A DNA stretch of 64,000 bases from positions 1,054,001-1,118,000 of the forward strand of contig NZ_CP137642.1 in the NCBI RefSeq assembly GCF_033472595.1, in the 5' to 3' direction. The translations under genes and the position numbers were made by a program. This DNA is from Methanoculleus receptaculi (GTDB taxonomy: Archaea > Halobacteriota > Methanomicrobia > Methanomicrobiales > Methanoculleaceae). Under the pieces are notes generated by a model. It ran no database searches. It was not told the origin of the DNA and saw nothing but the letters and a program-made list of their open reading frames with translations. Below, in pieces: positions 1-24,756 of the stretch; the stretch's first letter is position 1; every line of letters starts with the position of its first letter.

Positions 1-3000
1 TTCTCAAGAGCGCTACTATCCAGCGCAAAGCACGGCTTCAGGCGTGTCAGTTCCGCCTCAAAACGGGTCAGATCACCCTTCGGCATGATCTCGATGCTCG
101 AGAGCTCCCGGATTGCCTTGAGGGCAGGACTCTTCATTAACCTCTTCTTCCGGTTGTCCCCCTCGACACCCAGGCGCGCCGCACCATGGAGACGCAGGTA
201 CTCGTCGATGTACTCCTTTTTCAACCGGTTCAGTTCCCGTTCGAACTCCCTCTGGAACTCTTTGGTCTTCTGAGTCTCCGGATCTCTGATCTTCTCCAAC
301 AGGGCTTTTTTCTGCTCAACCAGCGATTGCAGAAAAGGGTTATCGTCAGGCAGGACCCTCTCTGCCTCTGCGAGGTATTGAGTAACCGGCGCGACACGCC
401 TACAGAACTTATCCAGATCCCCGATCTCCCGCATAACCTCCAGGTTCTTTTGCTGCTTGCGCACATCAGCCCGGCTGCTGCCGAAGTTCCGGAGTTGCCC
501 CTCCGTCTTGAACCGCTGGAGCGACTCGAGGAAGACCTTAAGGTCATCAAGTTTCCGGGCAGCATCCTCTTTTCTGCTCTCGTCAAGAACGCTCTGCCCC
601 CATAGCGTCAGAGAACTCTTCAACACCTCCTTAGCCGCAACAACCTCTTCGATCAACCCGGCCACGCGTGCCTGCAACTGCTTCACCGCTTCCCGGTGGG
701 TTGCGGAGTTCCGGACAAGTGCTGGTGATATCTCGATGAGAGAGAAGAGTTCGGCAAGCACCTCGATCGGCGGTTCTTTTGGCAGTTCAAGGTGTTTAAA
801 CGCTGTCAGGTCAGCAACACTCATCCTGGTGAGGTCCTCAAAATTTGCGGCTGTAATCTTCTTCCCCGGATACGCCACCACCACATCCCCATGGTATACC
901 ATGGCGGCAATAACAACGACAACAAACTCAGGCTCAAGCCGGAACCGCAGATCATACTCGACACCCCTCTGGCCGCCGATGATCTCGCTCCGGTTCAGCA
1001 CCTGACCAACCCCCCTGCTCCGGATGAGATCATTGATGTGGCGGGCATATACGGAATTCTCAGTATTGATAGAACCGTCTTCAAGCAGGTTGAGACCGTC
1101 AAGAACTGCAATGCCGCGCTGTACGCGGACACCGCTTATACACTTGATGGCATCCTTCATCGCCTCTTCCCGCTCTTTAGACCGTATAACCTGCAAGAAA
1201 TGGGGGTAATCCGGGGCGATCTCCTCAAAGTGGGGCGCAAGACAGTGGGCTGAGATGTCATTGATGGTATCCGATATATCCCCCGAAGTGTTTATCCCCC
1301 CCTCTTTTGCCAGCTCAACCAGGGGCCGGGTCACCCCCTGGTACGTCACGTCGTATGCGGTGATGATGTTCTCCCGCAGCCACTTTGTGATCGTCTTGAG
1401 GTGCTCGGACGCCTTGGCTCCGTATATGCTGCGGTTCGACCCCGAAGAGTTAGTGAACATCTCCCTCGCGCCGGCATATAACCTTAGAGCAGTCTCGAAA
1501 GTCTCGTTCATCCTGCTTAACCTGAAGAAGACCTCATCCGACCGCAGTTCGTCCGTGAAGAGCGGCGGATCGTATGGCTGGAGGAAGTAGATGTAAAAGT
1601 CGCGTGGCGGCTGGGCGGTCGACCGTTCGTTGGGCGCTCCAAAGAAGAGGTAGCCAGACCTCCCGGCTTGCCGATCCCTCCAGATGACCTCATGCTCCCA
1701 GATCCGGTAGCCTGGCACATAGGTCGATCCCGGTGTCTTCATCACCCCGGCCAGGACCTCGAAATAGTAGCGATCCAGTATCCCTTTATCCAGGGAATCG
1801 GCCCGCTCTTCGATCTTTGCGTCATAATCAATGTCCTTCCGAACATCGATGTAATACATATCGTTCTCATCATTATGCGATATGAACTGCCCGCTGACGG
1901 TCTTTCCGATCTCACGGAGTATCGACTCGATTGTGGTGAGCAGGAACTCCGAATCCTGCTCCGGTATAGGGAGATAGATACAGAGATCATCCCGGATCTC
2001 TTCCGGCGTCAACCCAATCGGGGAACTCACATCGCCTGTCGTGAGACGATGGACGCAGAGGGCATGAACAATCCTGATCGCAGATGGGAGGTATTGTTTC
2101 CTCTGAAACGATCGGTTCAGGATCCCTTCAAGGATCTGACCTTTTTCGATAACCTCCCGGATATCCTGATTTGTCCGCAACGACGTATCGGTGCTGAGAG
2201 GTTCCCAGTAGTGGTCGTAAGAGAGCAGGCCCGGACTGTCTGTTGGGACCTCCTCTTCAATGAGTTTTTTAACATCCCTGCTCAACGTCTTGAGGATCTC
2301 CCTTTTCTCAACAACAAAAAGTTTCTCGAAGATCTCCAGGTATGCCGGGTGGATGGGGTAGAGAGCAACGTATTCATCAAGCCGTTCGTTCATATCCCCA
2401 TAAAGTGCGGTGAACTTTCCAAGATGATGCCGGATCATTGCCTTTTGTTCTGGCGTCTTCTTCAGCAACCGTTCAGCCACAACATACGAGACATCCGTCC
2501 GGACTATCCGCACCGACTCAAACCGCTTCTGGACCCTCCTCATTGACTCAGCAACGAACTCAAACCGCGGGTTGTCAAAGAGCGCCTCCTGGATCCCGGC
2601 CATAAACCGGAACCTGCTCAGACGACAGGATTCACCGATCTCACGCATAAAGTTGAGATCCAGTATCAACTCCTGCTCCTGCCGTGAACGCAGATAGTCA
2701 AGGAGTTCGTCAACGACGAGAAGCAACCCTTTGTCGGGGTATTTCTCGTTGAATGCATTCATCATCGCGATAAAGGCATCCTTGTGGTTCACCAATCTGT
2801 CTGCAGGAGGAAACGAGTAGTCCACACCAATCTTTGCCAGGTTTCTCTCGAGTTCACCACAGACGATATCACGAAGCGATTGCCGAACAGCTCCGATCTC
2901 TGTCCTGATAACCTTAAACTGACCTGCAATCTTCTTTACAGGCTCCTTTATGTCATCGCTCTGGAGATGCTCCACAAGATCCGCGTGCTCTGCAACGGCA

Positions 3001-3242
3001 CTGACAACCGACATCAGGTGCGACTTACCGGTACCATAATTCCCAACAACCAGCAGCCCTTTCTTGTCGAGCGTTGTGTTCAGTTCAAGGTGAGGTATAA
3101 GAACCTCGATGAGATTCTTCGCCATCCCATCCGAGATGACATATGTCTCCACAAGGCGCCGGGCCTCATCCTTTTTATCCGCCTCTCGCAACTGAACTAC
3201 ATCTTCAATAGGATCAAACCGAACGAGATCGCCGTATTTCAT
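1..3242 (-). CDS. brxC: BrxC-like large P-loop ATPase of a type 3 BREX system (C-terminus beyond the window)
   Basis: The reading frame starts at ATG 3242 and stays open to the left edge (about 1080 codons, no stop), so the C-terminus lies outside the window. A Walker A motif (GNYGTGKS) is near residue 75 and a Walker B stretch (GLLLVVDELLDYL) near residue 175; the remainder is long, charged and partly helical, as in the BrxC/PglY/DUF6079 class of 1100-1300-residue ATPases. The start codon overlaps the stop of the upstream brxF (ATGA), so the two are translated as a unit. The order brxF then brxC is the beginning of a type 3 BREX operon; a PglXI methylase, BrxHII helicase, PglZ and BrxA would be expected to the left, but this is inference. 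Base composition is visibly less GC-rich than the core genes of the right half. Confidence 0.8.
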   Translation of the reverse strand, partial: MKYGDLVRFDPIEDVVQLREADKKDEARRLVETYVISDGMAKNLIEVLIPHLELNTTLDKKGLLVVGNYGTGKSHLMSVVSAVAEHADLVEHLQSDDIKEPVKKIAGQFKVIRTEIGAVRQSLRDIVCGELERNLAKIGVDYSFPPADRLVNHKDAFIAMMNAFNEKYPDKGLLLVVDELLDYLRSRQEQELILDLNFMREIGESCRLSRFRFMAGIQEALFDNPRFEFVAESMRRVQKRFESVRIVRTDVSYVVAERLLKKTPEQKAMIRHHLGKFTALYGDMNERLDEYVALYPIHPAYLEIFEKLFVVEKREILKTLSRDVKKLIEEEVPTDSPGLLSYDHYWEPLSTDTSLRTNQDIREVIEKGQILEGILNRSFQRKQYLPSAIRIVHALCVHRLTTGDVSSPIGLTPEEIRDDLCIYLPIPEQDSEFLLTTIESILREIGKTVSGQFISHNDENDMYYIDVRKDIDYDAKIEERADSLDKGILDRYYFEVLAGVMKTPGSTYVPGYRIWEHEVIWRDRQAGRSGYLFFGAPNERSTAQPPRDFYIYFLQPYDPPLFTDELRSDEVFFRLSRMNETFETALRLYAGAREMFTNSSGSNRSIYGAKASEHLKTITKWLRENIITAYDVTYQGVTRPLVELAKEGGINTSGDISDTINDISAHCLAPHFEEIAPDYPHFLQVIRSKEREEAMKDAIKCISGVRVQRGIAVLDGLNLLEDGSINTENSVYARHINDLIRSRGVGQVLNRSEIIGGQRGVEYDLRFRLEPEFVVVVIAAMVYHGDVVVAYPGKKITAANFEDLTRMSVADLTAFKHLELPKEPPIEVLAELFSLIEISPALVRNSATHREAVKQLQARVAGLIEEVVAAKEVLKSSLTLWGQSVLDESRKEDAARKLDDLKVFLESLQRFKTEGQLRNFGSSRADVRKQQKNLEVMREIGDLDKFCRRVAPVTQYLAEAERVLPDDNPFLQSLVEQKKALLEKIRDPETQKTKEFQREFERELNRLKKEYIDEYLRLHGAARLGVEGDNRKKRLMKSPALKAIRELSSIEIMPKGDLTRFEAELTRLKPCFALDSSALE

Positions 3243-3733
3243 GCCACAACACACCCCCTCCCATTTGATGATACCGATAGGATCGGGGTATCACCAAGAT
3301 GATTCCTGCCATACCTCCGGTAGTCATCATGGCCGGTATAAGCGTACACGAGTTCCGATCCATCATAATCTCCGTTCCATGCGGCGATTACGGTTTTGTA
3401 ACGCCCGAGATTGCTCAGTAAACGGAATGGATCGAGAGCCAGGTCGCGGGAGAACAACACCTCGGTTCTATCGAGCAGCACTGCCTCACCCTCTACCTTC
3501 ATGATAATCTCGTGAAGTAAGCGTTCGGCCATAATAGGACGGTCGCAAGGAGGTAAATCAAGGAGTCCTCGACTCAGCTCAGTGTTCACGTTGATGCGTG
3601 GAAAGCCAAACTGATCTTCGCAGTTGCGCAACACAGCGGAAATCTCTCTTCCTGACCGACCGGTCAGGATGATTAATCTGGTATTTTTAAGCGAAACCGA
3701 GTCGAGAGCCTCCCGAATCATCATACAATGCAT
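3239..3733 (-). CDS. brxF: BREX-3 system protein BrxF, with degenerate P-loop
   Basis: A 164-residue protein that matches my recollection of BrxF: a nucleotide-binding-like N-terminus, a central INVNTELSRGLLDL segment, a Walker-B-like AVLLDRTEVLF, the family stretch TVIAAWNG and a C-terminal YRRY. In the position of the P-loop the sequence reads LTGRSGREIS, so the lysine expected in GxxGxGK[ST] is missing; nucleotide binding may be lost or unusual. The gene overlaps the downstream large ATPase by ATGA. Alternative ATG starts at codons 4 and 5 exist; no clear Shine-Dalgarno precedes the first ATG, consistent with a leaderless transcript. The family call comes from motifs and neighbour order, not a database search. 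Confidence 0.72.
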   Translation of the reverse strand: MHCMMIREALDSVSLKNTRLIILTGRSGREISAVLRNCEDQFGFPRINVNTELSRGLLDLPPCDRPIMAERLLHEIIMKVEGEAVLLDRTEVLFSRDLALDPFRLLSNLGRYKTVIAAWNGDYDGSELVYAYTGHDDYRRYGRNHLGDTPILSVSSNGRGCVVA

Positions 3734-4098
3734 GAGAATAAGAACCGATAAATGTATCTTAAAAATTGAACTGTCGATACCCCCAGGTGAGTTTGTGGCT
3801 CTTTGGCCAGTGATCCTGGAATCAAAAACTCTGCTCAGAAAGATCTATTGAACAGATCTCTCCCGACGATGGAGAGGGGGGAAAAGGGGCCAGCCGCAGA
3901 ACCTCGGCGTAATTCACCCCCATCCCGCAGATGTCTTGCCGCGGGGATCTCCCTGCACTCTCGGCTCCGGGCGTGCACAACCCGTTGAGACCGAACACGG
4001 GTTCCGGGCCCGGATCTCCGATCCGGTCTTGAGCGGATCCCCCCCGCCGCCGGAAAAAAAGATCCCTTAATACCCCCCGGCTATAAATCTCATCTCTC
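3734..4098. promoter_or_regulatory. Divergent intergenic region between brxF and the TauE/SafE permease gene
   Basis: No convincing gene. It must hold the promoter of the leftward brxF operon and that of the rightward permease. Two AGATCT hexamers (3841-3846, 3853-3858) spaced by 6 bp make a short symmetric element that could be an operator. A/T-rich boxes (TTAATA near 4067 and CTATAAAT at 4081-4088) lie just ahead of the permease ATG at 4099; the first fits a near-leaderless message, the second is too close. The middle (about 3870-4060) is GC-rich and without recognised content. Confidence 0.4.
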
Positions 4099-4908
4099 AT
4101 GGCATTCTCCCTCATCGAGACCGTCATCATACTTGCCATCGGCAGCGGCGCCGGGGTGATGGTCGGGATCATGGGGGGCAGCGGGGTGATGGTGGTGGTG
4201 CCCATGCTGACGCTCCTGCTATCTTTCCCCGTCCACACCGCGATCGGCACCAGCCTCCTCATCGACGTCATAGCAACGGTCGTGACCGCCACCATCTACC
4301 ACCGCCACCAGAACGTCTACATCCGGCCAGGGCTCTGGATAGCGCTTGGCTCGGTCGGCGGCGCCCTGGCGGGGAGCAGGGTTGCCGATATGATACCGGC
4401 GGTCGGGATGAGCGGGCTCTTCGCGCTGATGCTCATCCCGACCGGGGTCTACCTCTGGCTGAAGGGGCTTGGCCGTCCCGGTCTCGCCGCCGCCGGCGGC
4501 GAGATCGACTCGCCCCGGCTCCCGGTGCAGACCCGGCGCCAGCAGTTCACCGCGCTTGGCCTCGGTGTCTTCGTCGGCATGATGTGCGGGCTCTTTGGCG
4601 CCGGCGGCGGGGGGATGATCCTGCTGATCCTGATATTTGTGCTCCGCTACCCCGTCCACCTGGCGGTCGGGACATCCTCGTTCATAATGATGGTAACCGC
4701 CGCATCGGGCACGGCGGGCTACATCATCCACTCCAACATCGATATACAGGCAGCGCTGATTGCAAGCGTCCCCACCGTGCTTGCCGCCGGCATCGGTGCC
4801 GGTATAGCAAACAGGGTCAGCGAGAGGACGCTTGGCCGGATCATAGGTTTTGTCCTGGCGGCTCTCGGGGTTGCCATGATCGCAACGCGGGTCGTGGCCG
4901 GGGGGTGA
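4099..4908 (+). CDS. TauE/SafE (TSUP) family membrane transporter
   Basis: A 269-residue, very hydrophobic protein with two similar halves, each opening with a glycine-rich membrane segment (GIMGGSGVMVVVP near residue 24; GLFGAGGGGMILLIL near residue 166), the typical internal duplication of the sulfite exporter TauE/SafE family with about eight membrane spans. Members move sulfite, sulfonates or other small organic anions across the cytoplasmic membrane; the substrate cannot be told from sequence. Single gene between the BREX-3 start and small accessory genes; GC content is high, like the core genome rather than the defence genes, so it may be an original chromosomal gene next to the island. 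Confidence 0.85.
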   Translation: MAFSLIETVIILAIGSGAGVMVGIMGGSGVMVVVPMLTLLLSFPVHTAIGTSLLIDVIATVVTATIYHRHQNVYIRPGLWIALGSVGGALAGSRVADMIPAVGMSGLFALMLIPTGVYLWLKGLGRPGLAAAGGEIDSPRLPVQTRRQQFTALGLGVFVGMMCGLFGAGGGGMILLILIFVLRYPVHLAVGTSSFIMMVTAASGTAGYIIHSNIDIQAALIASVPTVLAAGIGAGIANRVSERTLGRIIGFVLAALGVAMIATRVVAGG

Positions 4909-5077
4909 GGGAAGACCCACCCGTCAAAAAGGTGCCGGCGGTGTAATATGAGGCCATCGGATCGATACCCCGCTCGGATGGCATCACCATGAGTCCTGAT
5001 GGACACAAGCATACGCACAACAACTATACACAGCACATCCGGGGCGGGCAGCCTGACTCCGATGGGCGAGGTTGAAG

Positions 5078-5635
5078 ATGACCGTGGATTTCACCCTCGA
5101 TGAGATAACTGAGAGCCTCTCCGACCTGGATCTGGGGATCCTCCACCTGCTGCATGCAGGAGGCAACCCTGCCGTTTTTGGGGATGTCATATTCCAGAAA
5201 GAACTTTTTCTCATCGGGAACTGCATCGAGCGGATCGGAGACGAGGCAGACTCCGCCCCCCACCAGTTTGGGCCGTACAGCGAGTCTGCCGAGGTTGCGC
5301 CGGATGGTCTCATCGCCCTGGGCGTTGTGAGGAGATCGGAAGGGGGCTATACCCTTGTCTGGGAGAAGGTCTGCTCCGCGCTCCATCCCGAGGAGTCCGA
5401 AGCAATAGACGACTTCAAGGAGTTCCTCAACGACCTCAGCGTGGATGATCTCCTCCTCTTCGTCTACGTCACCTATCCTGAATATGCCCACGAGTCCAGA
5501 AGGCTACGCAAGATCCAGCAAAGGAGAGCCCCTCTTTCGGCGTCGCTGTACCGGAAGGTAAGTCTTGAGAAAGCCGCGTTTCTTGCCGGGATGAATATAG
5601 AGTCATACCTTGATCACCTGAGAGGCGGCGCATGA
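5078..5635 (+). CDS. Small protein with winged-helix/Panacea-like N-terminus and UPF0175-like C-terminus; possible antitoxin
   Basis: The protein has 185 residues from ATG 5078, which has GAGGT six bases upstream; a TTG two codons earlier is less likely. Residues 15-100 resemble the Panacea/YwgA-type fold (FQKELFLIG..., QFGPYSES, then LIALGVVRR). The C-terminal 25 residues (SLEKAAFLAGMNIESYLDHL) resemble the DNA-binding helix pair of UPF0175/VapB-like antitoxins. This suggests a fusion of a protein-interaction module with an antitoxin motif (inference). The stop overlaps an ATG (ATGA, 5632), the usual geometry of a toxin-antitoxin operon, but the downstream frame ends after 20 codons, so the partner seems broken. 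I do not know a name for this protein. Confidence 0.55.
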   Translation: MTVDFTLDEITESLSDLDLGILHLLHAGGNPAVFGDVIFQKELFLIGNCIERIGDEADSAPHQFGPYSESAEVAPDGLIALGVVRRSEGGYTLVWEKVCSALHPEESEAIDDFKEFLNDLSVDDLLLFVYVTYPEYAHESRRLRKIQQRRAPLSASLYRKVSLEKAAFLAGMNIESYLDHLRGGA

Positions 5636-6424
5636 AGATCTTTGACAGGTTACTGCAGGGTCGGCCAGAAGCATCTACCCGGAGGACGCCCTGATCGGGC
5701 ATGAGGAGAGTCTTTCAGCGACTGAATTTCGGCAAAAGAGGTTGCTTGCAGACAGTCAACATGCAGCAGCAGTGCCTGGAGTCCTGAAGGGCATTATCGA
5801 TGGCGTCGCTGGACTACTTCTCGTCGAAGAAGAACGTCGTGCAGAGCGATATCAAGCGTCCTGCAAGACGGAGCGGCAGGTGACCTATCCAGCAGGTTCT
5901 CCTTCTTTCCTGGATCGTCATCACCGTCCAACCCGGGGTTTATTTATCCGTCTTTCCGTCATTGCGTCCGGGAATGGGAATCAGTCACAGAAGGCAGGTC
6001 ACACGATAGAGGGTATAAAGCAACGCGATACCGTGGTCATACACTCCTTTTGGCTCCCACGCCGCAGGCAGGCAGGGCAAAACCGAGATCGGAGATCTAC
6101 ATTCTCGCGTGATAGCAAAAGAGAGTTACCGAAAAAGGTCAGGGAGGCCATATTGAACGATTCGTCAAAGGAGGCTGATATACCGTGTGCGATCACTACC
6201 CTGTGTGTAAGACGTGAAGGACGCTCTGGCGCTCCAGCGGCTCAAGGCTGATACGGTCATACCTGGATTCCCAGCCGGTGATCGATATGCGCAGGCGATT
6301 AGAATCTACGAGCGGGGACGACAAGCGATATAGGGATGCGGCATGGCCTCTCTCTGCGGCTGCAAGGTTGAGCGCGGGTCTTTCAAAAAGTGGTGGGGCC
6401 AGAAGATGGATGATGCGCCGTCTT
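5632..6424. other. Long gene-poor stretch with a possible dead toxin gene
   Basis: The frame beginning ATGAAGATC at 5632, coupled to the preceding stop, runs only about 20 codons before a TGA. A frame without a start then continues over about 5668-5890 (DALIGHEES..., LLLVEEERR) and has some protein-like character, so the stretch may be a frameshifted toxin or other gene remnant. From about 5900 to 6424 I see no coding signal on either strand that I would defend; longer open frames there are low-complexity or antisense. Confidence 0.35.
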
Positions 6425-6703
6425 TTAGTGCCCGCTCTCGGCCTCATCCGCCATCTTTGCCTTCGCCGCAGCGCGGCCAATCAGGACGACCGCAATCACA
6501 GCGATGATAGTCACAACGACAGCGTAGACAAACATCGCAACAAGCGTGCTCCGCTCCCCAAAAATGATATCGAAGAGTTCCTGGATGGCGCCGTTCCAGG
6601 CAAGAGCGGCGATCAGACCGAACGCCGCCGTGATAAGGGCGGCCATCTTATCGATGACCTCAACTTTGAAAGACGTAATAAACCCACCGACGAGAGGGTG
6701 CAC
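6425..6703 (-). CDS. Small membrane protein, DUF5654-like
   Basis: Ninety-two residues, with an amphipathic start (EVIDKMAALITAAFGLIAAL), the AALAWNGAIQELF segment typical of the archaeal DUF5654 family, and a second membrane span (VYAVVVTIIAVIAVVLIGR) before a short charged tail; two transmembrane helices expected. GTG 6703 keeps the conserved FKVEVIDK segment. An internal ATG at 6646 has a better GAGGT ribosome site but would cut that segment. Function of the family is unknown. It stands alone, followed on the right by a repeat cluster. Confidence 0.75.
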   Translation of the reverse strand: MHPLVGGFITSFKVEVIDKMAALITAAFGLIAALAWNGAIQELFDIIFGERSTLVAMFVYAVVVTIIAVIAVVLIGRAAAKAKMADEAESGH

Positions 6704-6817
6704 GTTTTTGCCAGATAACCCTTTCTGTGGTATGCCCGGGGTATGAGCGGGACGACCCCGAGTGACACCCCGCCTCCCGGCTGTTCAGCCGTGGGAGAAG
6801 AGTGGAATTAGCCGGAA

Positions 6818-7565
6818 GGTTCTCGCCTGAAACCGGGTGAGGGGATGCTCTCCGTTGCACCGTATCGATGGGGAATCGCACCCTGGGGAGGGGGACGGGA
6901 CTTCTCCCCGCCCCTGTCGCTCGCGTTTCCCGTTGAACGGTATTTATAGATCACCCCCACCTCCCGGCCGCTCCGCGGCCTCCTCCCGCCCCCTCGATAG
7001 GGGGCGGGCAGTGCGTGGCGATTGGCCAGATGGCCGTGTCAGGGGACGGGAACAGGATTCTTCGGAGGGTTTTCACCGACGCTCTGGTTGACGCTTTGCA
7101 GGGCACGGCATCTATGGGAAATCGCCCCCGTGGGGGAGGGGCTGACGGGGAGGGGGCGGAACGCCCCTTCCCCTGTCGCTCGCGTTTCCCGTTGAACGGT
7201 ATTTATAGATCACCCCCACCTCCCGGCCGCTCCGCGGCCTCCTCCCGCCCCCTCGATAGGGGGCGGGCAAGTGTTTGGCGATTGGCACGATGGCCGTGCA
7301 CATGGGGAGAGACAGGATCTTCGGTGAGGTTCTCGCCTGAAACCGGGTGAAGGGATGCTATTCACTGGCACTGTATCTATGAGGTATCACCCCCCTGGGG
7401 GAGGGGCTGACGGGGAGGGGGATGGAACATATCCCCCGCCCCCGTCTCCTGCATATCAACCAGACACTCTTTTTCCGTCGGAGGTAGAGACACCCCCGCC
7501 TCCCGGCCGCTTCGCTGCCTCCTCCCGCCCCCTCGAGAGGGGGCGGGGCAGTGTGGGGCGATTAG
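6818..7565. repeat. Dispersed three-hairpin repeat, cluster A (three tandem units)
   Basis: Three head-to-tail copies of a GC-rich non-coding unit with a period of roughly 260-280 bp (the GGCCGCTCCGCGGCC hairpin recurs at 6966, 7225 and, altered, 7505). Each unit holds: a conserved CGCCTGAAACCGGGTGA block or variant, an ATCGATGGGGAATCGCCCC-type block, a GGGGATGGAACATCCCC hairpin (degenerate in the first two units), the GGCCGC...GCGGCC hairpin, and a CCCGCCCCCT-loop-AGGGGGCGGG hairpin. Related clusters lie at about 36.4, 46.5 and 60.0 kb. Open frames across the unit are proline/glycine/arginine-rich and change with each copy, so I regard it as non-coding. Confidence 0.9.
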
Positions 7566-7753
7566 ATGATGTCTAACGCCGAAGTCAGACAGATCACTCA
7601 TCTGGACAGGTATAATGCAGCCCGGTTGAGGGATCGAACATGACTGGAATGTGATTGTCACATTCCTGCCACATTTTCCGATCCGAAATGTGCGCAGATT
7701 GTGAAGTCATCATTTCACGGCATTCCTTCGATTGTCCTGGTCTGTGATCCGCC

Positions 7754-7999
7754 TCATCCGCCCCCAAAGACCCTGATCAGCACCGCCACCACCCCGCCGA
7801 CGACCCCGCCGGCCCCGGCGCTGACCGTCGAGACCCTCCGCTCCTCGCCCGCTTTCTCGGCCTGCCACCCCTCCAGCGCACGCAGCCGGGCCTCAAAATC
7901 CTCGTCCCTGGCCTCCATCCGCTGAAGCGTCCGGCATATCCACTTCACGTCGCGGTTCGTCTCGTAGACGAGCTCCCGGGTGGTCTTCTCGGTGGTCAT
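7754..7999 (-). CDS. Small coiled-coil membrane-anchored protein (XhlA-like layout)
   Basis: Eighty-one residues from ATG 7999, chosen because a strong AGGAGGAG ribosome site stands directly upstream; longer open frame to 8122 lacks one. Residues 5-50 are charged and heptad-like (VKWICRTLQRMEARDEDFEA), followed by EGWQAEKAGEERR and a C-terminal glycine/valine membrane segment. The same layout, coiled coil then one C-terminal membrane helix, is found in XhlA-type phage holin-associated proteins, but the match is architectural only. Divergent from the 168-residue gene at 8178, with which it may share a promoter region. Confidence 0.6.
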   Translation of the reverse strand: MTTEKTTRELVYETNRDVKWICRTLQRMEARDEDFEARLRALEGWQAEKAGEERRVSTVSAGAGGVVGGVVAVLIRVFGGG

Positions 8000-8132
8000 G
8001 GTCTCCTCCTGTGGGAGTATGGGTCGGCTGAATCGAAAAGCCATACGGTAAAGGATATATTGGTGAATCCGGGCAAGATCCAGCGTTTTTGATACAGTCA
8101 GGCTGATACCCTCTCCCACCAACCCTATAGTT

Positions 8133-8347
8133 GTCTGTCACATTCCCGGGAACCCTGGCAGGCAGGAGACAGAACCCATGGCAGACTTTGTGCTGAGTAC
8201 TGTAAACAGAACGGCGGTCCGGGAACTTTCGGTCCCGATCCCCAACGTAACGGCGTTTAACAACCTCGTCCAGTCGGTCATCGACGACAACCCCTTCGGC
8301 TGTGTCGGCTACACCACCTCCGACGGGGAGTATATCGAGCCGGTCGT
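8133..8347. repeat. Direct repeat, left copy (5' part of the 168-codon gene plus leader)
   Basis: This segment recurs at 31184-31397 in the same orientation. It covers about 45 bp of leader (ATTCCCGGGAA...CTGGCAGGC) and the first 56 codons of the gene at 8178. A 77-bp core (8244-8320 and 31294-31370) is identical. The two copies bracket the 23 kb that carry the type 1 BREX operon. Confidence 0.9.
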
Positions 8348-8684
8348 CCTCAACCGCGAGCACTACACCGCGAAGGTGAACTTCATCGACGGTGATGGGA
8401 AGCGTGTCGGGACGGTCTCTCTCAACTCGCCGACGATCGCAGCCTTCGAGGCGAACGCCGCCGAAGTAATGGGCAACGCGGCTCTCGAGGCTGCGATGGG
8501 CGGCACCGCCCTCCGCGACCTCCCGCACGAGACCTACTACGCGCAGCTGCGGTGCCACGACCCCTCGGGTGACGACTACTACCTCACCTTCACGAGGAAG
8601 ACCCTCAGGCTCTCGTCCTACCAGGATGAGGCCATCAGGGACACGGTCGAGACCTGGGCCGACGCTGTTGCGTCGCTGGACTGA
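8178..8684 (+). CDS. Uncharacterised 168-residue protein (complete copy of a duplicated gene)
   Basis: The frame starts at ATG 8178 behind GGCAGGAG. The protein is soluble and mixed alpha/beta by look: a polar N-terminus (TAVRELSVPI), VQSVIDDNPFGCVGY, then alternating strands and a helical C-terminus (DTVETWADAVASLD). I do not recognise a family. The first 56 codons and the leader are repeated at 31228, where the copy is truncated. High conservation of the duplicated part with mostly synonymous or conservative changes (for example LSTVNRTAVREL against QKTVNKTAVRDL) indicates that it was under selection as protein, so this is a real gene. Confidence 0.75.
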   Translation: MADFVLSTVNRTAVRELSVPIPNVTAFNNLVQSVIDDNPFGCVGYTTSDGEYIEPVVLNREHYTAKVNFIDGDGKRVGTVSLNSPTIAAFEANAAEVMGNAALEAAMGGTALRDLPHETYYAQLRCHDPSGDDYYLTFTRKTLRLSSYQDEAIRDTVETWADAVASLD

Positions 8685-8756
8685 AGGGGCCTCTCGCCCC
8701 CTTCACTTTCATCCCGCACACACCTCGCATTTAGCAATCCCCTCTTCTCCAGACTC

Positions 8757-9042
8757 TCACATCTTTCTCCACCCGGGCATAGCGCCCGAAGACCTGCGTC
8801 TAGAACGGGAACTCGCGGAACTGGGGTTTCCGGAGGACTGTCTCCCCGTATCGGGTCTTGAGGGATCGGTCCTTGTAGCCGTTCCGATGCGCCTTCCGCG
8901 CATCGGTGCGTTCGTACCGGGCAGCTCCTGCCTGCTGGAGGGCCTCTGCGAGCATCACCTGGTTGAGGAACCCGGTGATGAGGGTCTTCATGCCATTCTC
9001 CTGATCGGAAAGATAATCTCCGATTAACGCTAAGGGATCCAT
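8757..9042 (-). pseudogene. IS256 (Mutator) family transposase, N-terminal remnant
   Basis: ATG 9042 opens a frame with clear IS256-type residues (AARYERTDARKAHRNGYKDR, then TVLRKPQFREFPF). A TAG at the following codon interrupts it, and the frame goes on after the stop as TQVFGRYARVEK, which is where intact members read ETQVFGRY-like sequence; one G-to-T change (GAG to TAG) explains the stop. Homology ends near 8757, so the catalytic domain is gone. Confidence 0.85.
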
Positions 9043-9164
9043 GGCCCTGTTTCTCCTTTGTCTAAATCTAGGTTGGATCCAGGGCCAATTCCATTTTACA
9101 GAACTTTCGTTACGCTACCGATCCGGCACAGCACCCGGATGATCATATGGCACATTGTGGCAAA

Positions 9165-9205
9165 TATGCACAAGTATAAGTATCACGCTGACTGAGAATA
9201 CACAT
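9165..9205 (+). promoter_or_regulatory. Promoter of the toxin-antitoxin pair
   Basis: AAGTATAAGTAT (about 9172-9183) is a good archaeal TATA box, centred about 28 bp before the ATG at 9206. That spacing implies a leaderless message for the antitoxin. Confidence 0.5.
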
Positions 9206-9436
9206 ATGTCTTCCAGCTCGAGTGAAGCAGGCAATCAGATCAAGCGTATCCCCGTCAAAGAGCCCACCTGGAGGGACCTGCACAACCTCAAGGAGGCTGG
9301 GCAGAGTTACGATGAACTACTTAGCCAGATGATCCGGCGCGAGCAGGATTATCGGGACTGGCGGATGATCGCCGAGATTGATGAGACCGGCGAGTTCGTA
9401 GCCTTTGACCCGGACGATATCTTGCAGGACGACTGA
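9206..9436 (+). CDS. Antitoxin of a RelE-type toxin-antitoxin pair
   Basis: Seventy-six residues from ATG 9206, with a serine-rich start, then RIPVKEPTWRDLHNLKEAG and SYDELLSQMIRREQDY, which resembles the ribbon-helix-helix-like N-terminal part of small archaeal VapB/RelB-type antitoxins, followed by an acidic tail (AFDPDDILQDD) suited to neutralising a basic toxin. The frame could begin 17 codons earlier, but the TATA position supports 9206. It is followed after 21 bp by the toxin gene; autoregulation of the shared promoter is expected for such pairs. Confidence 0.7.
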   Translation: MSSSSSEAGNQIKRIPVKEPTWRDLHNLKEAGQSYDELLSQMIRREQDYRDWRMIAEIDETGEFVAFDPDDILQDD

Positions 9437-9457
9437 CGCGCCGGGGAGCAGGAGAGC

Positions 9458-9739
9458 GTGTTTACTCTTGTCATTGAGCGAAGGGCACGGGAGTTCGTGA
9501 AGAAGCTCCCCCCAAAAACCCGGCGCATCATCGTCGAAAAGATCCTGGAACTCAAAGAAGACCCCTTTCCGGGAGGAAACAAGGAAAAACTCGAGTACCC
9601 CCACCCTCCTGCAGTCTATCGCCTGCATATCGGCAGGTCTTTCACGGTATTTTATATCATCGAGCATGAGGAGAGCATCGTCAAGATCGAGAAGATCATG
9701 ACGATCGAGAAAGCCCATAAGGAGTACTCCCGCAGGTAG
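9458..9739 (+). CDS. RelE/ParE superfamily toxin
   Basis: Ninety-three residues starting at GTG 9458, with GGAG nine bases upstream. The fold pattern of RelE/ParE toxins is visible: VIERRAREFVKKLPPKTRRI, the helix pair ILELKEDPFPGG, then the strands YRLHIGRSFTVFYII and IVKIEKIMTIEKAHKEY. RelE members cut mRNA on the ribosome; ParE members poison gyrase; sequence alone does not separate them, though the basic residues (K, R, H) at the end of the sheet fit a ribonuclease. The antitoxin lies directly upstream in the same operon. Confidence 0.82.
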   Translation: MFTLVIERRAREFVKKLPPKTRRIIVEKILELKEDPFPGGNKEKLEYPHPPAVYRLHIGRSFTVFYIIEHEESIVKIEKIMTIEKAHKEYSRR

Positions 9740-9751
9740 GGAGGACGACCC

Positions 9752-10402
9752 ATGCAGATTCATAAGGATATCCTTGCCGCCTTTCCCGGCCTCTCGGTCG
9801 CAGAGGGCGTTATCGGCCCGCTCTCGATCCGGGAGACGGCCCCGGCCCTAAAAGCCCTGGGCGACGAGGTCGCCCGCTCGATACGGGAGCGGTATACGCT
9901 GGAGAGGATCAAGGACGAACCCCTGTTCAGGGCATACAGGGACTTCTTCTGGAAGGTGGGCGTCGATCCGACCAAAACGCGGCCCGCCTCGGAAGCGCTG
10001 GTGAGAAGGATCCTGGCCGGGAAGACGCTCCCGGCGATCAACACCGCGGTGGATGCCTATAACCTGGCCTCGGTCCGCACAGGCATACCCATTGCGGCGT
10101 TCGATGCCGATACCCTGGTCGGGGATCTCGCGATGCGGTTTGCTGAAGAGGGCGAGGAGTTCCTCGGCATCGGGATGGCAGCGCCCGTCATGCTCCGTAG
10201 GAACCAGGTTATCCTGACGGATGAGGATGCGATCGTCGCCGTCTACCCGTACCGCGACTCGGATGCAACGAAGATTACCCGCGCCACAACGACGGTTCAC
10301 ATCGTGGCATGCGGCGTGCCGGGGGTTGAGCGGGAGAAGGTCCATTCGGCATACGAACTGGTCGTCGCATACCTGCGGGAACACGCTTTCGGCATCCGGT
10401 GA
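9752..10402 (+). CDS. B3/B4 domain protein (PheT editing-domain-like)
   Basis: A 216-residue stand-alone B3/B4 domain, the fold found in the beta subunit of phenylalanyl-tRNA synthetase. Visible features are YRDFFWKVGVDPTKTRPASE, the segment VRRILAGKTLPAINTAVD, DLAMRFAEEGEEFLGIG and the C-terminal VHIVACGVPGV. Free-standing B3/4 proteins are common in archaea and bacteria; a tRNA-editing or nucleic-acid-binding role is suspected but not shown. The GGGAGG ribosome site lies eight bases ahead of ATG. It follows the toxin gene by 12 bp but need not be part of the toxin module. Confidence 0.85.
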   Translation: MQIHKDILAAFPGLSVAEGVIGPLSIRETAPALKALGDEVARSIRERYTLERIKDEPLFRAYRDFFWKVGVDPTKTRPASEALVRRILAGKTLPAINTAVDAYNLASVRTGIPIAAFDADTLVGDLAMRFAEEGEEFLGIGMAAPVMLRRNQVILTDEDAIVAVYPYRDSDATKITRATTTVHIVACGVPGVEREKVHSAYELVVAYLREHAFGIR

Positions 10403-10527
10403 TGTTGAGAATGAGCGGGCCTGCGCTCTCCCTGTATCTTGGGCTGTTTTACTGCGGGTCATAAACCCGTCTCTCGCATTGCTCCTCTGAAGCATGATCC
10501 AGACCAGCCGGTTGCCGAAACAGGCAT

Positions 10528-11798
10528 CAGTACTTCGCTAAATTTCCCTCACCTCTCCTTCTGTTTGACTTTGTTCCACCATCCTTTCTCTAAACCCGTT
10601 GCCGTAACACAGCAATTCCTTTCACCATCCCCATCGATACCCGGGTTGCCTCCCAGATCATGAGTCGAAAACTGTCGAATCGAAACGCGCACATTACAAT
10701 CGTTCGCGGTCCCTGCTTCACCGGCGAGAAATGTATCCAGAGCAGAGCGACCCAGACGTTTTTCAGCAGAAAAGAGATGATCGCATAGAGATACCGGATC
10801 ACGGGGTTTCTTGTGCTCGTCCTAGGTCTCACCTGGTTGCGCATCCGATACGACGACTCGATCGAGAACCGTGATCGATAGATCCGGTGTACCCGGAGCG
10901 GATGCCAGGTAATACCGCCGACAACGTAGCCCAGGTTCTCAGCGCCGTGTTTTCCTCGTCTCCCCTTCGCATACTTCACAGCAATGGCAATCGTCAGGGG
11001 AAGTGGTGGTTTTCCCCTCATCTGATACTCGGCATACCGTGACTGCGTTCCCTGGAGCAACTCTTTCATGCGGTTGCTCTGCTTCTTGACGGGGACGATG
11101 AATGGCACCTGCACCTGGGTCAGAAACCCGAAGACCTTCCGGGTATAGAACTCCCGATCCAAACAGAGTACTTCAACTTCGAGGCCGAGTTCGGTGATCC
11201 GGTCGAGGTACCGGGCGATGTAGCCGACCTCTGGTGGTCACGTTGAGGGTGACATAGGAATAGAACTCGTTCGTCGATTGCTTGCGTTTGCTTCTGAGGA
11301 TGTATGGTTCATTCTCCTCGGAGGTCTTCCCGTAGTACGGATCGTTGGTGTAGTCAATCGCAAACTGATACGCGCTCCCGGGCTTGAGAACCTGGTACAC
11401 CGTATGGGCGAGGAGATCGCAGCGCTCTTTTCCTCTAACTCGTCCATATCAAGTTTCTTGAGGTGGTAACGGAAGGATGTCTCACAGGGCACGTGCTCCA
11501 ACAACCCGGTGATCGAGTGAATCGATTGTTGCATCGCGGCCATGCCGACCAGAGCCTGAAACAGGTCGGTCTGGGTGAGCCGACCCTGGATCGAGATGGT
11601 CAGGTGCTGATCCAGCGCCGCAACGGCGTGAGCACAACATTCTTGCGGTGTGAGGTTGGTACTCTTTCTGCAAGGTCGTCTTCTTGCTTTTGGTAAAAGG
11701 CATGAGGAGGTGCCTGCAAACTATATAGATCTTTCGTTTTTGTGCTGGTTTCTGAGTCCAGCGAAGAATATGGGGGTTCTCAAATTAGCGAAGTACTG
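10528..11798 (-). mobile_element. Decayed ISH3-like insertion sequence with terminal inverted repeats
   Basis: The ends carry matching inverted repeats: CAGTACTTCGCTAAATT at 10528-10544 and, read on the other strand, CAGTACTTCGCTAATTT at 11782-11798 (15 of 17 positions agree). About 1.27 kb lies between the outer ends, the usual size for ISH3/IS4-like elements. I could not find a clean target duplication in the flanks. The transposase inside is frameshifted, so the element can no longer move by itself. Confidence 0.8.
10590..11703 (-). pseudogene. ISH3-like DDE transposase, disrupted by at least three frameshifts
   Basis: From ATG 11703 the protein reads MPFTKSKKTTLQKEYQP, then shifts frame near 11660; the second piece holds MAAMQQSIHSITGLLEHV and LKKLDMDELEEK; a shift near 11420 leads to VLKPGSAYQFAIDYTNDPYY (a catalytic Asp region); a shift near 11225 leads to LEVEVLCLDREFYTRKVF (second catalytic Asp) and the C-terminal RFSIESSYRMRNQVRPRTS (catalytic Glu with the Y(2)R-like spacing of IS4-type enzymes). 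All key blocks survive but in three or four frames. Confidence 0.85.
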
Positions 11799-11802
11799 AA
11801 CC

Positions 11803-11896
11803 TGAGCATAAAAGAGGGAAATAAAGCGAATAGTGGTGAAAGGAGCCACTACCGTGAGAATAGTCTGCCCCCTGCGCCTAAAAAGTGCGGGAGTTA
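11803..11896. repeat. Hairpin-containing ~95-bp repeat, left copy
   Basis: The sequence from GAGCATAAAAGAGGG to GTGCGGGAGTTA recurs, in the same direction and with scattered changes, at 12995-13092. Both copies contain a small potential hairpin (AGTGGTGAAAGGAGCCACT here) followed by CGTGAGAATAGT. The two copies flank the IS630-like gene remnant and the left copy touches the right end of the ISH3-like element. Confidence 0.7.
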
Positions 11897-12945
11897 AGGT
11901 TCAATCGCAGAAGCAAGATCCGAGAGGGTGGAGAAATACTTGTTATGAGTAGCCCTCTTTCGAGTCTCTTTCCACACTCGCTCGATCGGATTCAGTTGAG
12001 GGCTATAGGGAGGAAGGAATTCAAGGATCAACTCTTCCTTATGCTTCTCCAGCCAAGGCTTGAGCATTTTTGCATGATGGTATCGACTGTTGTCCAGGAT
12101 CAGGCATAGGGCCCGGTCTCTTTTACGAAAAGGAGAGAAGTTTCTCGAGAAAGTCCTGGAAAGTGGTTGCATTGAAAGTCTCACTTAACTGGTGCACTAA
12201 GCGACCAGTTCCAATCGCCACTGCCCCGAAGACACTGATATGGAATCGTGTGTGTTCCTGCAATACCACTGGATCCCTCTCCTCTGGAGGTATCCACATG
12301 GTGCACCGCGACCCATGCTGCTGAAAGTGGCACTCATCCAACCTCCAGATCTCGAGAGTATCATCCTTCTCCAGTTCTGCAAGTTTTTTTAAACGCCTCT
12401 TGAGCGACCGGGTCACCTCGTGAGATAACTGGTCGGGGTTTTCGCTGTCGGAATCCCAGTTGATGGAAGAGGCGCTGGGCCTGTCTAATCCCGAGTGTGA
12501 TCTGGTATCTCTCCTTCAGGTGATGGCTCAGGAGCTTCCCGTCCCACAGGTTCTGCGAATATCCTAAATCTCGGGGATTCTTCCGAAGGTCCTGGTCAAT
12601 CTGGTCCTTTACTGCATCCGAGATTCGGGACGGTCTTCCCGGACGACTGTCATCGTGCAGCCCTTCCACACCGCGGGTATTGTATGTATTTACCCAGTTC
12701 TCGATAGTTGTCGGGGAGTGCCCCAGGATCTCTGCTACCTCGTAACAATCGTAACCCTTCGCTACGAGAAGAACTCCATGTAACCGGGGAAGCGTACCGT
12801 GCGTCTTCCGATCACCCGGACTGCAGATGCGGCGTCCTTCACCAAGAGTTTTCGCAATTGTATCCCCGTATTCTGGATGTGATGTGATTCTATATTGATA
12901 TACTGTAGGAATTATGACGTTACAATAGAGTCGAAAAGGTCGCAT
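11894..12945 (-). pseudogene. IS630 family transposase with two frameshifts
   Basis: N-terminal part (12945 to about 12380): a helix-turn-helix half with GYDCYEVAEILGHSPTTIEN and the LHDDSRPGRPSRI segment of IS630/Tc1-mariner relatives. A shift at a run of seven A residues (near 12388) is needed to enter LAELEKDDTLEIWRLDECHF, and a second near 12130 to enter LCLILDNSRYHHAKM and PPYSPQLNPIERVWKETRK, the catalytic D/DN/E blocks. With two shifts in different places I read it as decayed, although the A7 run alone would be a plausible slippage site. No terminal inverted repeats were found. Confidence 0.82.
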
Positions 12946-12994
12946 GAACTGCAGCGTCTAAAAATTGTATGGGCGCAATATATCCTGGCAACCT

Positions 12995-13092
12995 TGAGCA
13001 TACAAGAAGGAGGTAAAGCGAGTGGTGGTGAAATGAGCCACTACACTATCGTGAGAATAGTTGCCACGTGCGCCTGACATATGCAGGAGGTT
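12995..13092. repeat. Hairpin-containing ~95-bp repeat, right copy
   Basis: Partner of 11803-11896: GAGCATACAAGAAGG, AGTGGTGGTGAAATGAGCCACT (a potential hairpin), CGTGAGAATAGT and GCGCCT recur in the same order and orientation. It ends about 50 bp before the end of brxL. Confidence 0.7.
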
Positions 13093-13140
13093 AGGGTGTA
13101 TGGTTGAAAGGGGAGATGGAACTAGCCTGCTCGAGCAACC

Positions 13141-15177
13141 TCACTCACCAAGAACCTTGAACAGGGCGTCCCTTGGGTCCTTATAGTAGATGATCATCAA
13201 CCGGGACGCCAGGTCGTCCGACATATCGTTGAGTTGCCTCCGGCAGGATACCGGCAGCAGGATTGCCGTAGCCCCTTTTTCTGCGGCTAACTCCACCATA
13301 TCCAGTGCGTTGTAGACCGGCTCGACGGTTCCGCCCACGCTCATGCCCCCACCAATCACCACGCCACCTTTGAGGCTTCTACCAAGCGCTGCTGAGCAGA
13401 GGGCAAGGAGAAGCGGCATTCCAAGTGAAGAGGCACCTTTTACCGCGGTGAGTGCACGGACCTGAACGGAGAATTCACTCTCCCTCGGGTCCCGGTCACC
13501 TATAAGCGATCTGGCCTGCGTATAGAAGACCTGTTCTGCAGCGCGGAGCCCCTCGCGAAGTCCGGCCGGTGCTTTTACATTGATCAGGCGTACGGATGAA
13601 CCCGGTGTCACCGTGACCTCAATCTTATAAATGCCGCTTCCTTCGTTCTCCTCCCCCGGACCGATCGCCCAGACCTGGCCTGGCGGTAGTGGGTCCTGCC
13701 CTATCTCATTTTCGTTATGTAACTCCGGGGTTGCGACGTACTGTTCAATCCCGTCCATACCGAGTTTGTAGCTGAACATGGTGTTGCGGAACTCCGCAGA
13801 ACCGATCCGTTTCTGTTGCTCTTTGACCCTGCGACGGCACTCGAGAGCCAGACGCACCGCCCACTCAAGGACATCATCAGAGATCTCCATATCTGACGAG
13901 GGATAGACAAGTTTCAGGAGACCGTTTACCGTCTTGTTCACGGCCCGGCGGTCGCGTCCGCTCAGGGCATCCCCGAAGAAGACGCGGTCGTTTATGAGGT
14001 GGAGTTTGTCCTCGCTTCTGAGTTGCCTCCAGCACTCACTCAGGAAATCGCTGACGAGACCATAGTGCTCTGTCATCATGTTTGGATGGATCTTCGGGAA
14101 ATCCCAGCCCGGCACATAACTGTGAATCCTATCCATGAACGCGGTATCATCTCGGATCTCTCTTGGCAGCGGACCGAACAGGTGGCCCACACGCTGCTGG
14201 TGCTCGACATCAATCTCAAAGTTGCCGAGCATAACAATTCCACCCTCCGCCCTGATGCTCTCCTTGCCACGGGAGAATTCCCCGCTTTCCATGTACCCTT
14301 TCATGATGTTGATGCCATCTTTCTGGTCAAAGTTTATCCCCGAAACCTCGTCGAAACAGACAACATCATACTGGCATACGAGACCGCGCTGACCGGTTGC
14401 GTTGTTTACAAACATCTTTGCAACCGTTGCCTTTCCACCCGAGACCAGATGGGAGTAGGGGCTGATCTGCTGATATAGGTAACTCTTTCCTGTTCCACGG
14501 GGGCCGAGTTCGATCATGTTGTAACCCTTCTCGACAAAGGGGACCATGCGGAGAAAGAGGACGTCCTGTGCTCTTGGGGATAGAGAGGAGGGTTCTATCC
14601 CGATGCTCCTGATGAGGAAATCCTTCCACTCTTGAATTGACATCTTCTCACGCCCACGGGCGACATCGTCGAGGACGTTCCTCTTTGAGAGCTGGATTGG
14701 GCGCAGGCGAGTTATAGAGAACGGGCGGTTGCTCTCCGGATCAGCGTATGCAAGATCGATCTCCGCGTAAAACCCGCCGGTAAGCATCCGTTCATGCTCA
14801 TAGACGAGGTCTGATGAGATATGGACATCGTTCAGGAGGAGGGATGGGACCGTGGCGAGAAAGGAGTCTGACCTGGCATCGAGCCTGGCGGTGATGAGGT
14901 CTATGATTTTAACTGTGCCGTGTACCTTTGCCTGTGCTTTGTAGAATTCTTGCTCTCCTGCACGGACGATGCGCTCACCAAGCTGGCGCTGGACTATCTC
15001 AAGTCCATCCTTAATCTCATCTTCATCGGTTGTGGCACAGTATTTTCCGATTAGAAACTCTGCAACGTAGGTGGGGACCGGGTAATTGTCTTTGAACTTC
15101 TTTGCGAGGTCTTTTCTGACAACGTAGCCTGGAAAAACGTCAGCCGCCATCTGATCAAGGGCATCTAATTCTGTCAT
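13141..15177 (-). CDS. brxL: BREX-1 system protein BrxL (AAA+ with Lon-like C-terminus)
   Basis: The 678-residue protein is the last gene of the type 1 BREX operon. An N-terminal domain (1-200) precedes an AAA+ core with Walker A GPRGTGKS at 225-232 and Walker B DVVCFDE near 271-277, followed by sensor-like VMLGNFE. Residues from about 540 resemble a Lon protease domain (VRALTAVKGASSLGMP, then VIGGGMSVGGTVEPV). Where Lon has its catalytic lysine (GG[IV]KEK) this protein has GGTVEP, so proteolysis is unlikely; BrxL proteins are thought to act on DNA as ring ATPases in phage exclusion. It starts 3 bp after the pglZ stop. The length is normal for the family. Confidence 0.93.
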   Translation of the reverse strand: MTELDALDQMAADVFPGYVVRKDLAKKFKDNYPVPTYVAEFLIGKYCATTDEDEIKDGLEIVQRQLGERIVRAGEQEFYKAQAKVHGTVKIIDLITARLDARSDSFLATVPSLLLNDVHISSDLVYEHERMLTGGFYAEIDLAYADPESNRPFSITRLRPIQLSKRNVLDDVARGREKMSIQEWKDFLIRSIGIEPSSLSPRAQDVLFLRMVPFVEKGYNMIELGPRGTGKSYLYQQISPYSHLVSGGKATVAKMFVNNATGQRGLVCQYDVVCFDEVSGINFDQKDGINIMKGYMESGEFSRGKESIRAEGGIVMLGNFEIDVEHQQRVGHLFGPLPREIRDDTAFMDRIHSYVPGWDFPKIHPNMMTEHYGLVSDFLSECWRQLRSEDKLHLINDRVFFGDALSGRDRRAVNKTVNGLLKLVYPSSDMEISDDVLEWAVRLALECRRRVKEQQKRIGSAEFRNTMFSYKLGMDGIEQYVATPELHNENEIGQDPLPPGQVWAIGPGEENEGSGIYKIEVTVTPGSSVRLINVKAPAGLREGLRAAEQVFYTQARSLIGDRDPRESEFSVQVRALTAVKGASSLGMPLLLALCSAALGRSLKGGVVIGGGMSVGGTVEPVYNALDMVELAAEKGATAILLPVSCRRQLNDMSDDLASRLMIIYYKDPRDALFKVLGE

Positions 15178-15180
15178 GGA

Positions 15181-20400: not shown

Positions 20401-20735
20401 CGGGCGATCTCCTCACACTCATCAAGGGTGACAGGCACTCTGAACTCCGGGTGGATCAGCAGGCTGTTCTCGGCCAGGAACCGCGCAAAAAGCATCCGGT
20501 GCCACCGCTCGTAAGCTACCGACCTGACAAGGTCGTCAAACGACCCGAGCCTGCGGCACTCCGTCCGGAGTTGCCGACGTATCTCCGCCTGCTCCGCCGT
20601 GAGATAACCTGGCTTTCGCTCCTCATCAACACCAAGAACCAGCAGAGCATTTCTCGCCCCCTGTTCAGCCTTCCTGCGAGCCTCCTGTATCGCCTCATCG
20701 AGAGCGCTCCTCGCCTCGCGAGAGAGCACCGTCAT
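17475..20735 (-). CDS. pglX: BREX adenine-specific DNA methyltransferase PglX
   Basis: A 1086-residue type-IIG-like methylase. SAM-binding motif I is DPCCGSGHFL at 261-270; the catalytic motif IV reads TNVPY (442-445) where NPPY is the classical form, a variant I recall from other long PglX proteins. The target-recognition region follows (TGDDNRYRREFW near residue 615). It marks host DNA at an asymmetric site so that BREX spares it. Start and stop overlap brxC and pglZ by ATGA. Between about 18640 and 18960 (residues ~590-700) the DNA is strikingly AT-richer than the rest of the gene, suggesting exchange of the recognition domain. Confidence 0.94.
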   Translation of the reverse strand: MTVLSREARSALDEAIQEARRKAEQGARNALLVLGVDEERKPGYLTAEQAEIRRQLRTECRRLGSFDDLVRSVAYERWHRMLFARFLAENSLLIHPEFRVPVTLDECEEIAREEGRDLWEVAGDYAAEMLPGLFRRDSPVTRVRFAAEDTMALRSILARIPSETFLAEDALGWTYQFWQTDAKREVNASERKVEGYDICAVTQLFTEPYMVQFLLQNTLGAWWLHLHPDSPLRNEWRYYREGVQHDFSAWPESPAELKILDPCCGSGHFLVAAFHMLLAMRREVGEETEAAIRGILTENLHGLELDPRCIQIATFSIALEAWKAGFPTDSYLPVPNLACTGIPIRAKKEEWLSLAGDDGLLEGVLAQYYDLFKNADTLGSLIRVDKQPTLVDPKTLEKKFEQALRREKDAADPVAETFGETGEGVLKAAGLLSRRYDYVMTNVPYLTSGKQGEVLRGFIEENHPLAKNDLATVFLERCLAFCRPGGKVSIVLPQNWLFLASYKRFREHLLKKERWDLLVRLGPGAFETISGEVVKAILLNLTHAKPPEGHLLCGLDVSEERDAGAKARALLDAEISCVEQAGQLGNPDARIILDDIHSSGLPLLTEFVDTSQGLKTGDDNRYRREFWEIAYSIRSWRYYQSTTEESQNLYDGMHYCVDWRDSGKNMARLQGQSAWGNKGIAVSQMRELNPTFYSGELYDSNVGPIIPHDPSHLPAIWCFCSSPDYNIAVRKIDQSLKVTNATLVKVPFDLPHWQKVAAEKYPHGLPAPYSNDPTQWIFHGHPCGSVIWDEETKMLARGPLRTDGTVLHVAIARLLGYRWPAELDPDMELADLQREWVAESKKLLSFADKDGIVTIPSIRGEGRLVDRLRSLLAAAYGPAWSPHVEDELLRQAGYTKKDGSLKGDLEGFLRDEFFASHSRLFNNRPFIWQVWDGTKDGFSVLLNYHKLDKRNLERLTYTYLGAWINQQRTEVEKGLPGAERRLAAAEDLKERLAKILEGEEPYDIFVRWKPLHEQPIGWDPDLNDGVRLNIRPFVKAGVLRSRPNINWNKDRGKDPVPNASGSVERYNDRHFKLEEKRKAREKVKER

Positions 20736-24208: not shown

Positions 24209-24756
24209 TCTCGCGCCTCAATAGGCGTTGCGAGGTAGTTCCAGCCGTCACGGGCTTTCAGCAGCCGATAATTGCGCCCATCCCTGTCGCCGGGGAAGAA
24301 GAACATAAGACGACCGGGGATTTTCGTAGATCTGATCAATCGATCGATAACTGCACTCGCCCGGACGATTCCGTATAGACTCCCTATGCCGATCACGGCA
24401 ACCACGGTTGAGTCGTCGGCATCCTTCAACCTCTCTGCAAGGTGATCCGCGAGGCAGGTAACAAAGTCATCGAGATCATACTTTAGAAGGGACGGATCCG
24501 CAAAGTAGTCCTCAAGGTATTCGTTATCTGCCAGCCACCTCTCAAACATCCCGGTGACGTCAACCTCTTGCCAGTTATGCTTGGCCTGTTCGGTAACTAT
24601 CTTAAATTCACTGAGACGAGCGCGTATATTCCGCTCGTAAGAAGGGTCGTAGACGCAGAACCAGACCTTCTCCTCTCCGGAGAGCATCTCATTCCATTCC
24701 AACGAAACCTGCGTTTTGTAAGCCACAATAAGATCGTCAATCTTACTCATAACCAT
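24205..24756 (-). CDS. brxB: BREX-1 system protein BrxB (DUF1788)
   Basis: This 183-residue protein has the DUF1788 pattern: the N-terminal VWFCVYDPSYERNIR, the central MFERWLADNEYLEDYF, TVVAVIGIGSLYGIVRASAV and the terminal GRLMFFFPGDRDGRNYRLL with DGWNYLATPI. Its role in BREX is structural or regulatory, with no known catalytic site. It overlaps brxA upstream by about 10 bp and brxC downstream by 4 bp, so it lies inside one translationally coupled operon. Confidence 0.93.
   Translation of the reverse strand: MVMSKIDDLIVAYKTQVSLEWNEMLSGEEKVWFCVYDPSYERNIRARLSEFKIVTEQAKHNWQEVDVTGMFERWLADNEYLEDYFADPSLLKYDLDDFVTCLADHLAERLKDADDSTVVAVIGIGSLYGIVRASAVIDRLIRSTKIPGRLMFFFPGDRDGRNYRLLKARDGWNYLATPIEARE

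Follow-up and report, generated by a model that had tools for sequence, protein, structure and literature searches.

Type 3 BREX, as described in the literature (PMC12839542; PMC10799925), is matched in composition by an operon of the archaeon Methanoculleus receptaculi, whose six genes and their order are those of the type and which encodes a PglXI with a four-cysteine finger and an internal recognition segment as well as a Swi2/Snf2 helicase. It departs from the described type in a BrxF that lacks the Walker-A lysine and in its position 9.4 kb from a type 1 BREX operon. The latter has the six genes and canonical order of type 1 BREX and differs in motif IV of its PglX, which reads NVPY. BREX islands that include type IV restriction, such as the plasmid island of PMC8565348, likewise place BREX beside a second modification-reading defence, but the partner here is a second BREX type. 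The components of this locus are ordinary, and their arrangement is uncommon. No published account of adjacent BREX-1 and BREX-3 operons was found in the literature searched, which for the most part did not include subscription papers, and type 3 BREX has been reported from only 28 archaeal taxa (PMC12839542).

A complete type 3 operon and its type 1 neighbor

The window is a 64,000-nucleotide stretch of the host genome, a single contig of 1,980,381 bp (G000, C1, 1054001-1118000), with window position 1 at genome position 1054001. Its first 3733 nucleotides contain, on the minus strand, brxF (3239-3733; 164 aa), the first BREX-3 gene, followed after an overlap of 16 nt by brxC/pglY (1-3254, from a GTG start at 3254), which is cut by the window edge. 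BrxF matches NF033453 BREX_3_BrxF with 137 bits (cut-off 50) and the PADLOC BrxF profile with E=2e-38. BrxC, recognized by PADLOC, Pfam and NCBIfam profiles, matches PADLOC BrxC with 1677 bits and Pfam DUF6079 with 1491 bits, the latter spanning the entire protein. The size of these scores excludes a chance match for either gene and bears out the original prediction that brxF followed by a large P-loop ATPase marks the start of a type 3 operon.

The host chromosome was then examined with the same profile sets from 1040001 to 1058000. The first 1084 codons of brxC lie inside the window, and the gene continues past the left edge to genome 1053562 (window -438), giving a whole gene at 1053562-1057254 that encodes 1230 aa. 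It is followed to the left of the window, still on the minus strand, by pglXI (genome 1050980-1053559; 859 aa; PADLOC PglXI 1390 bits), brxHII (1048369-1051008; 879 aa; Swi2/Snf2 class, with SNF2 and Helicase_C domains, RapA-like), pglZ (1046445-1048376; NF033449 BREX_PglZ_3 626 bits, cut-off 250) and brxA (1045711-1046445; PADLOC BrxA E=5e-73). The operon thus runs off the left edge as anticipated, in keeping with its minus-strand orientation, which the original observation left unstated, and the four genes forecast there were found in full and in the forecast order. Spacing from brxF to brxA is -16, +2, -29, -8 and -1 nt, without breaks. Neither an early stop nor an insertion sequence (IS) was seen after the ATPase, pglXI and pglZ are both present, and the first IS remnant appears only past brxA. 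These observations confirm a complete, canonical type 3 operon of six intact genes.

The motifs expected of the encoded proteins are also present, including Walker A (GNYGTGKS, residue 71) and Walker B (LLVVDE, residue 178) in BrxC; DEAH and QRIGRVDR in BrxHII; VMDG, DHG and HGG in PglZ; and FCGTG, DPPF and a four-cysteine finger (CPSC at 234, CPHC at 261) in PglXI, the finger being a hallmark of type 3 (PMC12839542). The top PADLOC model for the helicase carries the label BrxHI, a name that in published usage denotes a Ski2-like protein (PMC12839542); despite this label, fold class and operon context identify the protein as BrxHII. The locus therefore combines brxF, a DUF6079 BrxC with Walker motifs, a PglXI with recognition segment and finger, a Swi2/Snf2 BrxHII, a type 3-class PglZ and BrxA, in the order F-C-XI-H-Z-A. 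The P-loop of BrxF reads GRSGREIS, without the Walker-A lysine, whereas close relatives carry GxxGxGKT. The lysine is also absent at several other BREX-3 loci, and BrxF has been classed with inactive STAND homologues (PMC12839542), so its absence does not indicate that the system is inactive.

The type 1 operon lies upstream on the same strand, with 9.4 kb between brxF and brxL, in agreement with the separation of about 9 kb and the full type 1 operon noted originally. It is an ordinary canonical member of its type, with brxA-brxB-brxC-pglX-pglZ-brxL intact in one minus-strand operon at 13141-25442, or to 25769 with the longest brxA frame. These genes are brxL (13141-15177; PADLOC BrxL E=1e-281), pglZ (15181-17478; PADLOC PglZ E=8e-256), pglX (17475-20735; PADLOC PglX 1401 bits; CGSG at 264 and NVPY at 442), brxC (20732-24208; NF033441 758 bits, cut-off 400), brxB (24205-24756; PADLOC BrxB E=4e-62) and brxA (24747-25769; PADLOC BrxA E=2e-80). 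The brxA frame is open from a TTG at 25769, its profile match begins at residue 94 of this long frame, and the likely start is the ATG at 25442. The NVPY of PglX, in place of NPPY, is shared with the homologues in two other genomes (G046 and G015).

Two methyltransferases with divergent recognition segments

PglXI and PglX differ in architecture, with the recognition segment lying between motif I and motif IV in PglXI and after both motifs in PglX. In sliding-identity comparisons, PglXI is ~90% identical to that of its closest relative (G079), but only ~30% identical over residues ~345-455, and PglX is ~85-95% identical to that of G046, but ~28% identical over residues ~585-690. Outside the recognition segments, the two proteins are ~80-95% identical to their nearest relatives. 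Both segments appear to have been replaced or to have diverged rapidly while the catalytic parts were retained, which suggests that PglXI and PglX are two active enzymes of differing specificity. Considering also their differing motif orders and the ~30% identity of the segments to those of the nearest relatives, two independent methylation marks are likely. As a test for segment exchange between loci, recurrence of the two segments in other loci was searched for; it was not found. For PglXI, the best matches that spanned most of the segment reached 42-45% identity, and for PglX they reached 36-37%. The type 3 PglXI recognition segment, like that of type 1 PglX, would be one that is swapped among close relatives. 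Two consecutive pglXI-like genes occur in the BREX-3 operons L038/L039 (genomes G203 and G208), L135 and L136, which suggests two specificities in one system.

Genomic context and origin of the two operons

A TauE/SafE permease gene (4099-4908, plus strand; Pfam TauE) is divergent from brxF. The remaining inter-operon stretch (4909-13140) contains unknown genes, a DUF5654 gene, repeats of ~265 bp, an IS256-type N-terminal remnant (8800-8991, minus), a RelBE-like pair (9206-9739, plus), a B3/4 protein gene (9752-10402, plus) and an IS630-type remnant (12361-12945, minus), with the RelBE and IS630 labels based on sequence reading and helix-turn-helix matches. IS remnants thus occur on the flanks of both operons, and an IS256-type transposase remnant also follows the BREX-3 brxA both in the host (genome 1045414-1045623) and in G079 (L031:12988-13343). 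The ~265-bp repeats are dispersed, intergenic and ~70-97% alike (6814-7563, 36538-37063, 46492-46894, 60043-61416 and -14019 to -13695); an Rfam search of the window gave no match, repeats included, and no phage match was found for those near 6800-7600. An unknown-family gene at 8178-8684 has a truncated copy across BREX-1, adjoining an M24 peptidase gene, and 8133-8343 and 31186-31393 are copies with 90% nucleotide identity.

Upstream of BREX-1, three frames of 592, 376 and 237 aa occupy 26715-30623; the 237-aa frame matches the C-terminal part of the PADLOC 'TPR' defence family and may thus belong to a broken defence gene. A small nucleotidyltransferase gene (30759-31052; MNT-like, PADLOC PDC-S09) is possibly half of a toxin-antitoxin pair. 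On the far side of BREX-3, genome 1040357-1045328 contains an Orc1/Cdc6 gene and a gene whose 979-aa product has prim-pol-like and P-loop motifs; together they resemble an integrated-replicon module. A segment of a Methanomethylovorans hollandica plasmid matches the N-terminal third of the 979-aa protein at 46% identity, the single partial match in a plasmid search for relatives of this gene. Relatives of the 979-aa gene and of a 111-aa gene lie near BREX-1 in G046 (L027).

The two operons had been described as parts of one island. They do share a 45-kb variable zone, which is rich in IS elements, lies between a surface-polysaccharide cluster and the M24 peptidase gene, and has its right border at window 31457 beside the latter, beyond which the sequence is collinear with the nearest relative (G075). 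A single acquisition does not hold, as relatives carry one operon without the other and the boundaries differ, and a composite island whose two operons moved or were inherited together was not recovered. G046 carries BREX-1 without BREX-3, with nucleotide homology stopping at window 13140 and 25529, the limits of the operon, and G079, G067 and G090 carry BREX-3 without BREX-1. G015, a member of another family, is 95% identical at the nucleotide level over window 3388-4929 (locus L040), which covers TauE and part of brxF; its brxF is a frameshifted fragment, and the BREX-3 brxC was not found there. At this locus, a BREX-3 operon of the lineage has decayed. From the single-type relatives, the differing flanks and this BREX-3-end remnant beside TauE in another family, BREX-1 and BREX-3 seem to have been acquired separately.

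In G075, the TauE gene lies near a repeat array and a glycosyltransferase gene; the latter is only 52% identical, so the site is treated as a candidate empty site. The ~265-bp repeats occur there as well. The matching points in the host are 17.7 kb apart and enclose Orc1/Cdc6, the prim-pol-like gene and BREX-3. G+C content is about 49-59% across both operons (about 49-57% in BREX-3), 63% in the right-hand flank and 67% in the replication-type genes, and the difference between the replication-type genes and BREX-3 means that their joint arrival is not required.

Activity and linkage of the two operons

It is very probable that the complete type 3 and type 1 operons of the host were separately acquired and that each works as its type does. 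Points against this reading are the missing Walker-A lysine of BrxF, the NVPY motif of PglX, the decayed BREX-3 operon in G015 and the BrxHI label of the best PADLOC helicase model. That one operon is decaying or silent, leaving only the other active, would be compatible with the IS remnants beside both operons, the missing P-loop lysine of BrxF and the frameshifted brxF fragment that is the sole BREX-3 leftover in G015. This alternative is nevertheless improbable, as all twelve genes are intact, the catalytic motifs checked are present and the recognition segments seem to be under active exchange.

A selected tandem forming one functional unit, through shared regulation, shared subunits or back-up, is slightly more doubtful still. 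It is supported by G397, a Methanosarcinaceae-like archaeon of another family with a one-contig genome of 4,139,808 bp, in which BREX-1 (brxB-C-pglX-pglZ-brxL recognized) is followed on the same strand, after a 9.4-kb gap, by a complete BREX-3. Four archaeal genomes with a closed chromosome carry both types, and two of these have them within 22 kb (p=0.002 under uniform placement); leaving out the host, which was itself chosen for closeness, the count is one of three (p=0.05), and in G282 and G475 the two types are ~395 kb and ~1.25 Mb apart. The inter-operon genes of G397 differ from those of the host and include GmrSD-type, SRA and helicase genes, which argues for independent assembly in a defence island. 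The operons are also divergent, with only 24-38% identity between the BREX-1 systems of the two genomes across the alignable segments of BrxC, PglX and BrxL, and no regulator was recognized among the host inter-operon genes tested.

An alignment scan of species genomes with PglXI yielded 80 loci, many with the same BREX-3 gene order, and none had a recognizable BREX-1 gene in the flanking DNA covered, which was up to 10 kb on either side of pglXI. Fifty of these loci come from 49 genomes, 13 of which also encode a type 1-like BrxC; as a further point against a functional unit, in none of these 13 bacterial co-carriers, whose assemblies are fragmented, do the two lie on one contig. General clustering of defence genes accounts for the pattern of close archaeal pairs. 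Tight linkage of BREX-1 and BREX-3 is accordingly uncommon, with one independent parallel in G397. At the genome level, BrxF was found in 11 and type 1-like BrxC in 25 of the 232 genomes of the class, with both in the host and G015; these two co-carriers against 1.2 expected (Fisher p=0.34) correspond to a chance frequency, and attraction between the types was rejected.

The idea that the left-edge genes represent a BREX-related system built around DUF499, or the remnant of a solitary ATPase gene, draws on the ATPase, methyltransferase and helicase homologues common to BREX-related systems (PMC12839542), but it can be dismissed with near certainty: DUF6079, not DUF499, spans the entire ATPase, which rules out the former, the ATPase is a complete 1230-aa protein inside a six-gene operon, which rules out a truncated orphan, and brxF, brxA and a BREX-3-class PglZ accompany it.

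Proposed function and significance

Under the favored reading of two separately acquired, functional operons, window 1-3733 would be the promoter-proximal end of the six-gene type 3 operon, transcribed leftward, and each operon most likely functions as established for its type. Both would be expressed and active, with PglXI and PglX each predicted to methylate adenine in its own short non-palindromic chromosomal motif, and with the other subunits (BrxC, PglZ, BrxA, BrxF/BrxB and BrxHII/BrxL) expected to block replication of unmarked invading DNA. The two systems would act in parallel without shared subunits, having probably settled independently in the same variable, IS-rich zone. It is unlikely, though worth stating, that the BREX-1-then-BREX-3 tandem has been selected, with differently built methyltransferases writing two independent codes on one chromosome and the operons backing each other up; if true, an invader that evades or mimics one mark would be caught by the other BREX.

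These results add complete archaeal type 3 operons to the few reported. They also provide a naturally occurring strain whose cells would have to accommodate both BREX types, each with its own methyltransferase, BrxC ATPase and PglZ protein, making the cross-talk of BREX types, the independence of their marks and the breadth of protection testable in a single organism.
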